35,518 nucleotides of DNA, from the NCBI GenBank assembly GCA_020253595.1, contig JADCBH010000079.1, forward strand, positions 1 through 35,518. Reading direction: 5' to 3'. Source of the stretch: Brevundimonas sp. Lineage in GTDB: Bacteria; Pseudomonadota; Alphaproteobacteria; Caulobacterales; Caulobacteraceae. Every line of letters begins with the position of its first letter. Positions within the stretch are counted from its first letter, which is position 1. The notes beneath the pieces were generated by a model. It was not told the origin of the DNA. It ran no database searches and saw only the letters and a program-made list of their open reading frames with translations. A program made the translations under genes and the position numbers. Positions 27,934 through 34,397 of this stretch are shown here, piece after piece.

Positions 27934-28101
27934 TTAGAGCGCCAGACCATCCGCGATGGCGTCGAACACGGCCTCAAGGCGCGTGCCGACCAGGCCGACG
28001 GCGGTGATGATCAGGACCGCGATAAGGGCGGCGATCAGGCCGTACTCGATGGCGGTGGCGCCCGACTCGTCTTTGACGAACTTCTTGATGAACTGGGTCA
28101 T
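27934..28101 (-). CDS. pilA: Flp/Fap family type IVb pilin
   Basis: MTQFIKKFVKDESGATAIEYGLIAALIAVLIITAVGLVGTRLEAVFDAIADGLAL; GAGGAAG Shine-Dalgarno just upstream. Confidence 0.97.
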   Translation of the reverse strand: MTQFIKKFVKDESGATAIEYGLIAALIAVLIITAVGLVGTRLEAVFDAIADGLAL

Positions 28102-28340
28102 ATGACTTCCTCTCAGGTAAAATGGCTTAGCGAGCAACGATGGCTGGGAGGCTCCGGTCGCCCGCTTGTCCCCCAAACGCAGGGTGACCATGCACGCCTA
28201 TCGGTTAAGGTCACGTCAGAGGGCATGGTTACCGCGCTGTTCGCCTTGAAAAGTTTGAAGATCGATCCCGTCGACAAATGGACACCTTATACAGAGACCG
28301 AAAACCTGGCGCGTTGTGACAGTATTCGCGAAATGAATGC

Positions 28341-28355
28341 TTCACCGCACGTTAA
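28341..28355. promoter_or_regulatory. candidate CtrA-like box
   Basis: Minus strand TTAA-CGTGCGG-TGAA matches TTAA-N7-TTAA in 7 of 8 positions. Lies in the divergent pilA / TadE-arm intergenic region. Confidence 0.35.
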
Positions 28356-28467
28356 CCGGCGTTGACGACCTGTTGTCAGCCACGCCGGGTTTCAGGATTT
28401 GTAGAGGTTTCCACCCGATCCTTCCGGCTCGTCTCGCGCGCCTGCGAGAAAGACCAAGGATCTGCTC

Positions 28468-28872
28468 ATGGCTGGATTTCCCGCCCGCACCCTTTCCACC
28501 CTGGCGGCGGCCGCCCTGCTGGCTGTTGCCGGCGTGGCCCAGGCCCAGTCCCTCAACGTCGAGATCGACCGCTCCAGCCGCATCAGCCTGCGGGGTCCGG
28601 CGGCCTCGGTGATCGTCGGCAACCCGGACATCGCCGACGTCACGGTCGTGGACGCAACCACCCTGTTCGTCACGGGCAAGGGTTACGGCGTTACCGAAGT
28701 AGTCGCTGTCGATGCGCTCGGCCGCACTCTCTACCAGGGCGAGGTCATCGTGACCGGCGGCTCGACCGGCTCGGTCCGCGTCTGGCGCGGTGCCCAGGCG
28801 ACGGAGATGGCCTGCGCCTCCTCCTGCTCGCCGTCGGTACGCAACGGCAACGCCGCCTCCCCGACACCCTGA
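28468..28872 (+). CDS. stand-alone pilus-assembly N-terminal (CpaC N-domain-like) periplasmic protein
   Basis: Signal peptide ...GVAQAQ, then ISLRGPAASVIVGNPDIADVTVVDATTLFVTGKGYGVTEVVAVDALGR, similar to the N-domain of CpaC in the same window. Confidence 0.88.
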   Translation: MAGFPARTLSTLAAAALLAVAGVAQAQSLNVEIDRSSRISLRGPAASVIVGNPDIADVTVVDATTLFVTGKGYGVTEVVAVDALGRTLYQGEVIVTGGSTGSVRVWRGAQATEMACASSCSPSVRNGNAASPTP

Positions 28873-28883
28873 GGCGGCACCCG

Positions 28884-29417
28884 ATGGCCCTGCGCATGCG
28901 CACTCCCGGCCTGTTCCGTCGCCGCCCTCGTCGTGAAGGCGCGGCTGCGGTCGAGTTCGCCATCGTTTCCGTGCCCTTCTTCTTCGTGATCTTCGCGGTG
29001 CTGGAGCTCGGCGTGATCTTCCTGGTGGACTCGACGCTTGAGGCGGCGGTCCAGCAAGCCACCCGACTTGTGCGCACCGGCCAGGCCCAGGGCGGGGCCA
29101 TGACGCCCGCCCAGTTTCGTACCGCCATGTGTGGCGCGATGAATGTGTTCGAGGGCGACTGCCAGGCGCGCGCGGTGATCGACGTGCGTCCGATCCCCCA
29201 GTTCCGGAACCCCAATCCGCCCAATCCCATCGTCGACGGCGAGTTCGATCCGGATCAGACGGATTTCGATCCCGGGGCGGCCGGCGACCTGATGCTGGTT
29301 CGGGTCTGGTACCAGCAACCCGTGGTCACGCCCATGCTGTCGAACGCCCTGACGCGGCTCGAATCCGGCGACGCCCTGATCACCGTCACCACCGCCTTCC
29401 GCAACGAGCCCTTCTGA
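28884..29417 (+). CDS. tadE: TadE family pilus assembly protein
   Basis: RREGAAAVEFAIVSVPFFFVIFAVLELGVIFLVDSTLEAAVQQATRLVRTGQAQ. Confidence 0.92.
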   Translation: MALRMRTPGLFRRRPRREGAAAVEFAIVSVPFFFVIFAVLELGVIFLVDSTLEAAVQQATRLVRTGQAQGGAMTPAQFRTAMCGAMNVFEGDCQARAVIDVRPIPQFRNPNPPNPIVDGEFDPDQTDFDPGAAGDLMLVRVWYQQPVVTPMLSNALTRLESGDALITVTTAFRNEPF

Positions 29418-29968
29418 TGATGCGCTCGCCTTCCAGTAGGATCCGGTCCTTCGCGGCGCGCTTCACACGCAATGCCGACGGCGTCGCCGCGGTGGAGTTC
29501 GCCCTCGTCGTCCCGGTATTGATCGTCTGCTACTTCGGTCTTGCCGAGTTCTGTCAGGCCTACATGGCCCAGAAGCGCGCCCAGCACACCACGTCCCAGA
29601 TCGCGGACATGATCGCTCGGACTCCCGACACTACGCTGGCCGAGCTCGACGCCATCTTCGATGTCGGCTCCCTGATCATGCAACCGTTTCCGGAGGCCGC
29701 CCTGTCGATCCGGGTCACCAGCATCACGCGCGACACCGACGGCGTCGCCCGCGTCGACTGGAGCCGTGGCCGGGGCATGACCGGTCTATCCGGGGTTCAG
29801 ACCGTGCCGGCGGGTCTGATTGCCAACGGCGAGACCATCATCATGAGCGAGACGCGCTACGCGTTCGACTCGTCCATGGATCGTCTGCTGCCTGGCCTGA
29901 CGAACTTCAACAGCAGATACTACCTGCGCCCGCGACTGTCCGATCGCCTGCCCTGCACAGACTGCTAG
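29417..29968 (+). CDS. TadE/TadG-like pseudopilin family protein
   Basis: NADGVAAVEFALVVPVLIVCYFGLAEFCQAYMAQKRAQHTTSQIADMIAR. Start overlaps the upstream stop (TGATG). Confidence 0.9.
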   Translation: MMRSPSSRIRSFAARFTRNADGVAAVEFALVVPVLIVCYFGLAEFCQAYMAQKRAQHTTSQIADMIARTPDTTLAELDAIFDVGSLIMQPFPEAALSIRVTSITRDTDGVARVDWSRGRGMTGLSGVQTVPAGLIANGETIIMSETRYAFDSSMDRLLPGLTNFNSRYYLRPRLSDRLPCTDC

Positions 29969-31221
29969 CCGACCAACGCACGGCGGATCGCCCCGATCTT
30001 GGCCTCGGTCTCGTCCAGTTCCGCCTGCAGATCGCTGCCGGCCGTGATCCCCGCCCCCGCCTGGGTGCGGAACCTCCAGCGGGTGTCCTCGCGCCACAGG
30101 GCGACGGTCCGGATCAGGACCGAGGCGGTCATCTGCCCCCTGCCGTCGATGTGGACCAGACTTCCGCACCAGGCCCCCCTCGGCGGCTCATGGTCGGCGA
30201 TCACCTTCATGGCCTGATGCTTGGGCGCGCCGGTGATCGAGCCCGGCGGAAAGGTGGCTTCCAGAATGGCTCCGGGGCAGGCTTGCGCCTTCGCACGTGC
30301 CGTGACGGTCGAGACCAGATGATGCACCGTGGCGAAGCTCTCCAACTGGAACAGCCGCTCGACCGACACACTGCCGATGTCTGACACTCGCGCCAGATCG
30401 TTGCGCATCAGATCGACGATCATCAGGTTTTCAGCCCGATCCTTCTCGCTGGCCACCAGCTCGTCGGCGCGGGCCGCGTCCTCGACAGGGTCCACAGATC
30501 GCGGCCGCGTGCCCTTGATCGGTCGTGTCTCGATCCGATGGCTCGCCGGATCGAATGTCAGGAACAGCTCGGGCGAGTTCGACACCAGCGCCCGCTCGCC
30601 CAGCCGCCAGAAGGCCCCGTAGGGCGCAGGCCCCGCCGCCAGCCTGATGAACAGATCAAACGGATCGGCGGCCTCGGTCAGCGTCCCGGACCAGCCCCGG
30701 GCGATATTGGCCTGAAACAGGTCTCCCTGACCGATCCGGCCAACCACATCGGCGACGGCGGCGCGATAATGGCCGTCGTCTTCATCCGGTCTGAAGCCCT
30801 CCGCCGGTGGTTTGGGCATATTGGGCGCAAGGGCACCGTCCAGCCATATCGCCGCCGTCGCCGCGTCCCCGACGACGCTGACTGTCCGTCTCGCATGATC
30901 GAACACCAGCACCGTGCGATAGACGGCCGTCATCAGATCGGGCCAGACCGGCTCGCGCACACCCGTCGCCGGTCGCGCGCCCCAGTCATAGGCGACCAGA
31001 CCAATGCCATGACAACCGGCCGGGACGACCAGGGCTTCACTCAGGCCGTCCGGGTCGAGCGGGCCCGCAAAGGTCCTTTCGGGATCGGCAGCGACGTAGG
31101 AGAACCGCCCGGCAGGCCCCCCGTCCGACAGCAGGCAGACCAGACCGTCACGATCCTTCAGGCCCGCCGCGACCGCCAGCGGCTCGACCCAGGGCCAGAC
31201 GCCGTCTTCGGGTCCGTTCAC
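29965..31221 (-). CDS. pabB: aminodeoxychorismate synthase component I
   Basis: Chorismate-binding motifs ETRPIKGTRPR, ENLMIVDLMRNDLARV and FPPGSITGAPKHQAMKVI. Confidence 0.95.
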   Translation of the reverse strand: MNGPEDGVWPWVEPLAVAAGLKDRDGLVCLLSDGGPAGRFSYVAADPERTFAGPLDPDGLSEALVVPAGCHGIGLVAYDWGARPATGVREPVWPDLMTAVYRTVLVFDHARRTVSVVGDAATAAIWLDGALAPNMPKPPAEGFRPDEDDGHYRAAVADVVGRIGQGDLFQANIARGWSGTLTEAADPFDLFIRLAAGPAPYGAFWRLGERALVSNSPELFLTFDPASHRIETRPIKGTRPRSVDPVEDAARADELVASEKDRAENLMIVDLMRNDLARVSDIGSVSVERLFQLESFATVHHLVSTVTARAKAQACPGAILEATFPPGSITGAPKHQAMKVIADHEPPRGAWCGSLVHIDGRGQMTASVLIRTVALWREDTRWRFRTQAGAGITAGSDLQAELDETEAKIGAIRRALVG

Positions 31222-31997
31222 GCCGCCAGTCGCTCCAGGATCCGGTCGCGCAAAACCGCGTCGATGCCCAGCGCCTGCTCGAGATAGGCGTCGATCGAGC
31301 CGTGCCGCGTCTCCATGGCCTGGATGGCGGAATGCAGATAGGCGGCCTCCACCCCCATGAAGGCGACGACCGCGTCGTGGGAGGCGGTCCGGCCGGTAAA
31401 GGCCTTCAACTGCTCGGCGATGCCGGGCGCGCGCGCCTCCAGGTCCACCGCCCGGTTGGTCAGCAGATAGTCCTCCATCAGGTCGTCGTGCGAAACGCCG
31501 AGCAGATGGTGTGTCAGGGCGGCCAGCATCCCCGTGCGGTCCTTGCCCGCTGCGCAGTGGATCAGGACCGGCCGGTCGCTGTCGGCCACGGCGCGAAAGT
31601 AGCGCGAGAACAGATCCAGATGCGCCGGCGCGAAGGGCAGGACACGATAGGTGTCGGTCATGAACCGCCGACCGCTGTCCGGCGTGAGGTCTGCGGTCTT
31701 CAGGAAGGTGATGTGCGGGGCCTCGCCCGCCTCATCCAGATCGCTCTCGATGACCACGCCGGTAAAGTTGGCGGCGCGCTTGGAGGGTTGGCGGCGGCGC
31801 TCGACCGGTCGGCGCAAGTCGATGACCACACCGAAGTCGATCGCCGCCAGCCGTTCCAGATCCGCCTCGGTCACGCCCGCGTGGTGCGCCGAACGGAACA
31901 GGGCCCCTATACGGACATGCCCCCCTGCCGCGGTGGCGTAGTCGCCGTAGTCCCGAAAGTTGTCGAGAGCGTCAAAGACATGGATGCGGCTGGCCAT
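31218..31997 (-). CDS. tyrosine-protein phosphatase (Y_phosphatase3 type)
   Basis: FRDYGDYATAAGGHVRIGALFRSAH and P-loop HCAAGKDRTGMLAAL. Confidence 0.92.
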   Translation of the reverse strand: MASRIHVFDALDNFRDYGDYATAAGGHVRIGALFRSAHHAGVTEADLERLAAIDFGVVIDLRRPVERRRQPSKRAANFTGVVIESDLDEAGEAPHITFLKTADLTPDSGRRFMTDTYRVLPFAPAHLDLFSRYFRAVADSDRPVLIHCAAGKDRTGMLAALTHHLLGVSHDDLMEDYLLTNRAVDLEARAPGIAEQLKAFTGRTASHDAVVAFMGVEAAYLHSAIQAMETRHGSIDAYLEQALGIDAVLRDRILERLAA

Positions 31998-32042: not shown

Positions 32043-32345
32043 TCAGCGCGGTTGAACCAGTCCCGCCATGGCGTCAAGGTAGGCGACGAAGGCCTTGCGC
32101 CCTGTGTCGGTCATCGAGGCCTCAGTCAGGGGCTTTCGTCCCACGAACCGCTTGGTCACGGTAACGAACCCGGCTTCTTCCAGCTTTCTCAGGTGGACCG
32201 AGAGATTGCCGTCCGTGGCCTGGAGCCGCGCCTTTAGGGTGGTGAAGTCCGCGCTCTCCACACCCGACAGGGCCGCCATGATGCCTAGCCGCATCCGTCC
32301 GTGGATGACGTCGTCGATGCGGGCGATGTCGAAATCGTCCGGCAT
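32043..32345 (-). CDS. winged-helix transcriptional regulator (HTH_34-like)
   Basis: IDDVIHGRMRLGIMAALSGVESADFTTLKARLQATDGNLSVHLRKLEEAGFVTVTKRFVGRKPLTEASMTDTGRKAF. Confidence 0.92.
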   Translation of the reverse strand: MPDDFDIARIDDVIHGRMRLGIMAALSGVESADFTTLKARLQATDGNLSVHLRKLEEAGFVTVTKRFVGRKPLTEASMTDTGRKAFVAYLDAMAGLVQPR

Positions 32346-32347
32346 GG

Positions 32348-32968
32348 TCAGGCCTTCGCCGCTCGCATGAGCAGGAAACCCGGCAGGGCCATCAGACCGA
32401 ACAGCGCTACGGCGTAGGCCAGATACTGCCAGCTCGTGCCGGACAGGACCGCAAGCGCGGGTGCTGCCGCGAAGGACGCCAGCGCCAGGGTCCACAGAGA
32501 CTTCGAGCGCGTCATTGTGGCCGTGACGGCCCAGCCCACGCCATAGAAGGCCATGATGATCGAAGGGATCACCAGGGACCACTCCGCGACATCGGACTGC
32601 CCCGCCCGGGTCAGGTCGCTGGCGATCAGCGACGTGAACAGGCTGAAGATCCCCCATCCCAGCGCCGACCAGACGATGCCGAAGGCGCGCGTCGCGGCGG
32701 TCTCGACTCCGCCTTCCCGCTTCAGACGTCCGATCAGCACCACGAGTGTCACCAGGAAGACGACGGTTGTGACGCCCCAGATCGCGCCATAGGCGGCCGG
32801 TGACACGGCCAGAATCCCTGCCGTGGTCAGTCCATGGACCAGGCTGCCCGTGCCGAAAATCAGCCCGGCCGCGAACAGGATGGAGCCACCCCGGACGGGC
32901 GCCTTGGTGCCCTCTTCGGCCAGGCCCTTCAGCCAGGCGATGTCGGTCAGTTCGTCGTGGTTGGTCAT
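32348..32968 (-). CDS. polytopic membrane protein of unknown function, paralogue of 32986-33555
   Basis: Hydrophobic segments; C-terminal YGVGWAVTATMTRSKSLWTLALASFAAAPALAVLSGTSWQYLAYAVALFGLMALPGFLLM. Confidence 0.8.
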   Translation of the reverse strand: MTNHDELTDIAWLKGLAEEGTKAPVRGGSILFAAGLIFGTGSLVHGLTTAGILAVSPAAYGAIWGVTTVVFLVTLVVLIGRLKREGGVETAATRAFGIVWSALGWGIFSLFTSLIASDLTRAGQSDVAEWSLVIPSIIMAFYGVGWAVTATMTRSKSLWTLALASFAAAPALAVLSGTSWQYLAYAVALFGLMALPGFLLMRAAKA

Positions 32969-32985
32969 GCGTGTGTGTCCTTGGG

Positions 32986-33555
32986 TCAACGGTCACGCCC
33001 GGACATCAGGATCAGACCTGGCGTCAGGGCGAAGGCGAAAAGAGACAGGCCATAGGCCAGATACTGGGCGGGCGTGCCGAGCAGCAGGGAGATGGCTGCG
33101 CTTGCGCCGAGGCAACCGACGGCGAGCCCGGCGGTCCACAGCGTCCGGGTGCGAACCGCGGCGATGATCCAGGCCACGCCATAAAGAGCCATGCCGACGG
33201 CGGACATCGCCCGCATGATCGTCCAGTCCTTCAGGACAATGGACAGACCCAGCAGAACCAGGGCCCCTCCGATCTGCCCGGCCAGGGTGAAGCGCGACCA
33301 GGCTGCGGCGCGCCGCACCGTCGCGAAGGGCGAGCGGCGCAGGCGGAACAGCACGGTCAGGAAGCCCGCGACCGCCAGCGGCCAGCTGAGGCTCAGCACG
33401 GCCGGGTGCAGATGAAGCAGCCCGCTGAGCACACCGAACTGGAACAGGTTGGCGGTGCCGAACACCGCGCCGGCCAGAACCAGAAACCGCCCGACTGCGG
33501 CCGAAAGCGACGGTTCCGGCGAGGTGGTCGGGAAAGAAACAGCAGCAGCGGTCAT
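32986..33555 (-). CDS. polytopic membrane protein of unknown function, paralogue of 32348-32968
   Basis: C-terminal YGVAWIIAAVRTRTLWTAGLAVGCLGASAAISLLLGTPAQYLAYGLSLFAFALTPGLILM aligns with its neighbour. Start MTAAAVSFPTT. Confidence 0.78.
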   Translation of the reverse strand: MTAAAVSFPTTSPEPSLSAAVGRFLVLAGAVFGTANLFQFGVLSGLLHLHPAVLSLSWPLAVAGFLTVLFRLRRSPFATVRRAAAWSRFTLAGQIGGALVLLGLSIVLKDWTIMRAMSAVGMALYGVAWIIAAVRTRTLWTAGLAVGCLGASAAISLLLGTPAQYLAYGLSLFAFALTPGLILMSGRDR

Positions 33556-33581
33556 GGGTGCCTCCGGGATGACCAACCACT

Positions 33582-33618
33582 AGCGAAATAACTTTGTGTT
33601 GTAAAGCACTTTTTCGCT
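33582..33618. promoter_or_regulatory. nested inverted repeat at head of the paralogue/HTH operon (candidate operator)
   Basis: AGCGAAA(33582-33588)...TTTCGCT(33612-33618) enclosing CTTT-N7-AAAG (33592-33606). AT-rich against a GC-rich background. Confidence 0.45.
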
Positions 33619-33650: not shown

Positions 33651-34397
33651 ATGGCCCCGGACTACCATCACATCGCCTACCTCGGCGTCGACATCGCCAA
33701 CCCCGTGACGATCGAGGCTGTGCTCGCCATGGCGGACCGCAGCGGCCTTCCCGCCGGGGCCAAGGTGCTGGACATCGGCGCGGGCACGGGCGGCGTTTCG
33801 GCGGCGCTGGCGCGGCGTTTCCGCTACCAGGTCCACGCCATTGAGCGGGATCCCGTCATGGTCTCGCACATCGCCGACAGGGTCGAGCGCGATGGCCTGG
33901 CCGACCGCGTCACCCTGGTTCGCGGCGTCGCTCCACAAGCGCTCGACGTCCTCGCTCCGGCGGACATGATGGTGGCGTTGGGCAGCAGCCGCATCGGCGG
34001 GTCTGACGTCACCACCGCCGCCGGCATGTTTCAGGTCCTGGCGGACCTTCTCGCCAGCCCCGGCTACATCCTGTGGGGCGACCTCACCTGGATCGCCACC
34101 CCCCCGGAGCCCCTGCGCCAGATCGTCAGCCTGTCCAGCATCTATGAGAGCGACGACGGCTGGAAGGCCGCGGCAGAGGCGGCCGGCATGACGTGCGTCT
34201 CGGCCGAACTCTCGCCTCAGGCAGTCTGGGACGATTTTTTCGGCACCGCCGATCGCCGCGTGCGCGACTGGCTCGAGGCCAATCCCGGGGTCGAAGGCCG
34301 GGAGTCGCTCCAGGCTCGCGCCGACCAGATCAGGGCCACGTTCGATTTCGGGCGGCCCTACCTCGGTTTCGGCCTTTATCTGTTCCGAAAGCCCTGA
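33651..34397 (+). CDS. class I SAM-dependent methyltransferase
   Basis: AGAKVLDIGAGTGGVSAALARRFRYQVHAIERDPVMV is methyltransferase motif I plus post-I. Start placed at MAPDYHH. Confidence 0.88.
   Translation: MAPDYHHIAYLGVDIANPVTIEAVLAMADRSGLPAGAKVLDIGAGTGGVSAALARRFRYQVHAIERDPVMVSHIADRVERDGLADRVTLVRGVAPQALDVLAPADMMVALGSSRIGGSDVTTAAGMFQVLADLLASPGYILWGDLTWIATPPEPLRQIVSLSSIYESDDGWKAAAEAAGMTCVSAELSPQAVWDDFFGTADRRVRDWLEANPGVEGRESLQARADQIRATFDFGRPYLGFGLYLFRKP

Follow-up and report, generated by a model that had tools for sequence, protein, structure and literature searches.

An HTH_34 regulator and a six-helix membrane protein of Caulobacteraceae as a candidate membrane-coupled one-component switch

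Introduction

A compact operon of Brevundimonas sp. encodes two membrane proteins and a small winged-helix regulator, and raises the question of what the regulator controls and how it would itself be controlled. The operon lies in the window, by which we mean the whole 35,518-nucleotide stretch of DNA analyzed here. Its three genes, M1, M2 and the HTH_34 gene, follow one another on the minus strand, separated by 17 and 2 nt. A preliminary description, made from the letters of the window, had proposed tandem paralogous membrane proteins upstream of an HTH_34 regulator, possibly forming a heteromeric complex and autoregulated through a nested palindrome. The three genes and both palindrome arm pairs are found exactly where it placed them. 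The features of the locus are as follows.

31218..31997, minus strand: tyrosine phosphatase (Y_phosphatase3; PF13350, E 6.1e-60), downstream of the operon
32043..32345, minus strand: HTH_34 winged-helix regulator, 100 aa (Pfam PF13601, E 5.5e-28), predicted autorepressor
32348..32968, minus strand: M2, six-helix membrane protein (AlphaFold2), universal partner of the regulator, putative sensor/anti-repressor
32986..33555, minus strand: M1, M2 paralogue without the N-terminal helix (BLASTP, AlphaFold2), accessory, in a minority of loci
33577..33605, minus strand: predicted promoter, TTTACA (33605-33600), 17-bp spacer, -10-like TAGTGG with conserved A
33591..33607, minus strand: operator GCTTTACAACACAAAGT (consensus ACTTTACnnnnnAAAGT), conserved in relatives
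33582..33618, no strand: outer arms AGCGAAA/TTTCGCT, present in the window, not conserved
33651..34397, plus strand: divergent SAM-dependent methyltransferase (PF13649, E 2.2e-9)

The start of the regulator was taken as the ATG at 32345; the open reading frame as called opens far upstream. In the palindrome, AGCGAAA (33582-33588) and TTTCGCT (33612-33618) flank N23, within which CTTT (33592-33595) and AAAG (33603-33606) are separated by N7.

Results

M1 and M2 are paralogous membrane proteins

The C-terminal pattern common to the two membrane proteins, already remarked on in the preliminary description, reflects true paralogy, since in a BLASTP alignment of 179 columns M1 and M2 are 34% identical (E 2e-18). 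AlphaFold2 modeled M2 (pLDDT 90.7) as a helix at residues 6-21 plus six long helices, and M1 (pLDDT 91.0) as six helices, the first from residue 17. The additional M2 helix precedes the first membrane helix and is absent from M1. For this N-terminus we claim a helix only, because its hydrophobic moment is low in the window (0.09, versus 0.41 in one relative), and the designation "amphipathic" was rejected. The charges of M2 fit the positive-inside rule for a protein that would have both termini inside (N-in, C-in).

Neither M1 nor M2 matched a Pfam or NCBIfam family above cut-off, and a Pfam scan of 35 M2 family members returned one sub-threshold match each to DUF6249 and DUF6637 and nothing else. 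Foldseek comparison of both models with the PDB gave no match with E≤0.001, and a sequence search of the PDB with M2 gave no match either. On these results we rejected the reading that M2 is an already known transporter or has a fold represented in the PDB.

The regulator is a stand-alone HTH_34 protein

The regulator belongs to the HTH_34 family, scoring 97.4 bits against PF13601, where the Pfam cut-off is 27. Its 100 residues include no cysteine, no second domain and no sensor domain. Membership of the ArsR/SmtB metalloregulators was rejected on a score of 29.8 bits against an NCBIfam cut-off of 55, together with the missing cysteine. PadR was absent from the Pfam families matching the regulator at E≤1, among which HTH_34 was the best match. 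The nearest solved structure by sequence, detected with the regulator profile (E 3e-13), is PH1061 (PDB 1ub9), which differs in being an archaeal stand-alone protein of unknown function.

M2 and the regulator form the conserved core

M2 relatives were found in 55 of the 99 genomes of the family and in few genomes of the class beyond it; in every family locus retrieved, the HTH gene directly follows an M gene. A set of 80 loci was defined as matches of the HTH profile in named genomes, chosen by HTH similarity and not by M similarity, and spans Brevundimonas, Caulobacter, Phenylobacterium, Asticcacaulis, Glycocaulis, Maricaulis and others. An M gene lies immediately upstream of the regulator in 80/80, and in the loci examined the regulator was never seen to lack a membrane partner.

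The three-gene order of the preliminary description therefore holds in relatives for its M2-HTH part (80/80), but M1 is present in only 15 of the 80, a count that leaves out a sixteenth two-match locus, L164, with a split M2. In L164, M2 occupies two frames, which may reflect a frameshift or an error of sequencing. M2 and the HTH protein are thus the core and M1 is accessory. A heteromeric M1-M2 membrane complex cannot be general, because most relatives carry one M gene only. In a maximum-likelihood tree the M1 sequences form one clade with support of 100/99, which bears out the tandem duplication. Since this clade includes both Brevundimonas and Asticcacaulis, M1 reads as a single ancient duplicate that has been unevenly kept.

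The flanking genes are less constant. The divergent methyltransferase gene adjoins the operon in 26/80 relatives, and, sharing the intergenic operator region with it, is a possible extra target. A tyrosine phosphatase gene is nearby in 47/80 loci, as a conserved neighbor mainly in Brevundimonas, and is probably outside the switch. In the region 27934-31221, a chorismate-binding (PabB-like) gene overlaps the phosphatase gene by 4 bp, and a small pilin-like protein is encoded at 27934-28191, with TadE/G-like proteins nearby (all identified by eye only). Three contigs labeled Bordetella, Pseudanabaena and Singulisphaera (L133, L154 and L179) bear typical Caulobacterales-like versions of the operon, and these assemblies are likely mis-binned or contaminated.

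A conserved operator overlaps the predicted promoter

The inner element of the palindrome is conserved upstream of the orthologous operons. CTTTACnnnnnAAAG stands upstream of the first M gene in 36 of 37 family loci, and the remaining locus (L038) has a one-base variant; among the 80 named loci, ACTTTACnnnnnAAAGT is ahead of the operon in 71, with one site per locus. A search for the exact 17-mer ACTTTACnnnnnAAAGT returned 61 rows in 61 genomes of the genus, versus 3 for the reversed control, and 52 rows versus 9 in the 99 family genomes. The operator was present in 43/55 genomes with a strict M match versus 1/44 M-negative genomes (p 8e-16), a comparison that is partly circular in that most sites counted belong to the operon itself. 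The one M-negative genome with the operator (G008) seems to have a divergent M+HTH locus of its own, located on the contig of L188.

The outer 7-bp arm pair, by comparison, recurs in only 2/71 loci and was rejected as a functional element. The outer arms are incidental, and because they are unconserved, the "nested" palindrome of the preliminary description is partly a coincidence.

The possibility that this is an ordinary conserved hypothetical operon, whose palindrome and duplication serve no common function, draws on the fact that most members are unannotated. With an operator enrichment far above control and M-HTH gene adjacency in 80/80 loci, we regard it as very improbable.

The operator overlaps TTTACA, which resembles a -35 element, and 17 bp on there is a conserved -10 A; this A, at operator position +25, is found in 68/71 operons and in 15/15 of the hydrolase sites described below. 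By the general pattern of sigma-70-type promoters, TTTACA and the conserved A would represent the -35 and -10 elements, and the -35 would lie within the operator, as is usual for repressors. Autorepression of the operon by the HTH_34 regulator is thus likely from the sequences, and the conservation of the operator together with its overlap with the promoter gives good support to the proposal that the operon is autoregulated through the palindrome.

The operator defines a small regulon

The genome of the window has a single further perfect operator copy, which precedes a signal-peptide-bearing alpha/beta-hydrolase gene (contig C298; Abhydrolase_1, E 4.5e-17). Among 30 hydrolase orthologues, own genome included, the operator was found in 15, with ≤2 mismatches and always in identical orientation; the reversed pattern gave 0/30 and shuffled patterns 0.05 per 30. 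The hydrolases belong to a secreted His-rich family (own C298, L229:3900-4832 region; L280-L309) with as many as three paralogues listed for a single Brevundimonas genome. The operator is present in half of the closest orthologues and has been lost from close relatives, a rapid turnover of the regulon; a different methyltransferase gene comes after the regulated hydrolase gene.

Inspection of 66 operator-site loci assigned 41 to the M operon, 14 to the hydrolase, one to a contig edge with an HTH gene and 10 to other positions, 9 of which adjoin genes for secreted or membrane proteins. These neighbors include BAAT_C hydrolases (three times), DUF2141 proteins (in three loci, two of them orthologous), a DUF2306 protein (once) and one unclassified secreted family (twice). 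With sites ahead of the hydrolase gene and of a handful of further genes for secreted or membrane proteins, the operator serves a small regulon, and since 9/10 other sites adjoin such genes, the recurring targets are envelope or periplasmic proteins. This reach of the regulon, and the sole relevance of the inner palindrome, were missed by the preliminary description. A literature search for DUF2141/DUF2306 regulons found nothing relevant, nor did one for the operator sequence.

The sites at the BAAT_C, DUF2141 and DUF2306 genes are mostly in reverse orientation, and the -35 overlap does not hold there, which weakens a simple promoter-occlusion picture at those genes. Such sites, like the divergent methyltransferase, would tolerate an activator. 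The HTH protein could accordingly be an activator, or another factor could bind the site, with the operon under general stress or growth-state control. We consider this improbable, as the operator sits on the -35 with a fixed 17-bp spacing to the -10 A, a repressor-like position, and the sites vanish in genomes without the M/HTH operon.

The M proteins could alternatively be effectors, acting in efflux, immunity or protection of the membrane, with direct sensing of a small molecule by the HTH protein in a MarR or LadR-type manner. Efflux control classically has an autorepressor encoded beside a membrane protein, and the hydrolases of the regulon could detoxify a compound. Nevertheless, M1 and M2 lack a transporter or PDB fold match, the regulator lacks a ligand domain or cysteine, and loci for which no further target was found still have M2; a role as effectors seems to us less likely than the switch proposed below.

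Other HTH_34 genes also accompany membrane-protein genes

The window's own genome contains a second M+HTH_34 pair (C403:5523-6437, L002), which forms its own clade with relatives in the tree and is conserved in Brevundimonas. An acyltransferase-like gene comes right before it, in an operon other than that of the window, and a folP-like gene follows it; an operator was looked for at this type of pair and none was found. A third HTH_34 gene (C272, L228) comes after an unrelated small membrane-protein gene, which suggests a wider theme of HTH_34 plus membrane protein.

Outside the family, 7 of 11 strong HTH_34 matches across the phylum directly follow a gene for a multi-helix protein, a lead rather than a survey, as helices were counted by a simple hydropathy scan. 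These proteins do not match the M profile. Comparison of M2 with eight other HTH_34-linked membrane proteins gave no HMM support for homology, which was rejected; the highest hhalign probability, obtained with one of the eight over the N-terminal helix, was a weak 16.8%. A literature search for HTH_34 paired with membrane proteins found no paper, and one for PF13601/HTH_34 by name yielded nothing on the family among the matches listed.

Discussion

We propose, with a probability of roughly 0.55, that the operon encodes a membrane-coupled one-component switch in which an HTH_34 repressor is released via M2. The HTH_34 protein would bind ACTTTACnnnnnAAAGT over the -35 region and repress the M2-HTH operon, with M1 where present, plus a small regulon that includes the secreted alpha/beta-hydrolase. 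The six-helix M2 would read a signal, either envelope perturbation or the arrival of a ligand, and contact the HTH protein, binding or sequestering it at the inner membrane, whereupon the operon and envelope-directed enzymes would be derepressed. M1 would be a later accessory subunit that has lost the N-terminal helix.

In this mechanism the reading of the signal is assigned to M2, since the regulator consists of a DNA-binding winged helix and nothing more. Control of the repressor by M2 is plausible, and sensing by M2 would be the most economical reading, because the regulator has no sensor domain, is accompanied by a membrane partner in every locus examined and is very probably self-controlling. 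The occurrence of HTH_34 genes after unrelated membrane-protein genes, elsewhere in the phylum (7/11) and in the own genome, counts in its favor; the C403 pair without operator and the reverse-oriented sites count against it.

Several known systems offer parallels. In Bacillus subtilis, SdpI sequesters SdpR at the membrane when its ligand is present (PMC1626106). The locus here likewise has a small regulator, a predicted autorepressor, encoded beside a polytopic membrane protein, and the conserved site over the -35 in relatives would fit self-repression of the SdpR kind; however, M2 has no SdpI match in Pfam or NCBIfam, no toxin gene is linked, the membrane protein gene comes first and a secreted hydrolase is among the targets. 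HAAS-PadR-like wHTH dyads (DUF1700 family), in which a membrane protein with an N-terminal helical part is always encoded beside a stand-alone winged-helix repressor, have been proposed as an alternative to two-component systems for envelope stress (PMC11237479). The same obligate neighborhood is seen in our 80/80 loci, but the regulator is HTH_34 rather than PadR, and none of the 35 M2 relatives scanned matches a HAAS, DUF1700, DUF1129 or DUF1048 Pfam model. The Listeria PadR repressor LltR (Lmo0599) mainly controls its own operon, with the two hypothetical transmembrane proteins Lmo0600/Lmo0601, and is thought to respond to envelope-active compounds (PMC6624303). Here too a predicted repressor would act mainly on its own operon with two transmembrane proteins, whereas LltR belongs to PadR and to the Firmicutes.

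The system thus resembles SdpI/SdpR, HAAS-PadR and LltR in its working as far as this is visible, yet is none of them by membership, because M2 matches neither SdpI nor HAAS models and the regulator falls outside the PadR family. M2 has no family in common with SdpI or with HAAS proteins, and its sensor role is proposed by analogy. The system appears to be a form, so far undescribed, of the membrane-linked repressor pairs of other bacteria. Tentatively, and less probably than the switch itself, HTH_34 proteins together with varied multi-helix membrane proteins that are unrelated to one another may constitute a widespread class of membrane-coupled one-component switches, in parallel to the HAAS-PadR dyads, of which the Caulobacteraceae version would have the best-documented regulon and a previously undescribed six-helix sensor family.

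The signals to which HTH_34 regulators respond seem to be undescribed in the literature, and the system described here supplies an operator open to testing, a minimal switch of two proteins and a set of named target genes. Should M2 control the regulator, it would represent a new membrane sensor family in bacterial envelope signaling, and the regulon would help to find out what several conserved but uncharacterized periplasmic proteins do, such as DUF2141 proteins and BAAT_C-like hydrolases.
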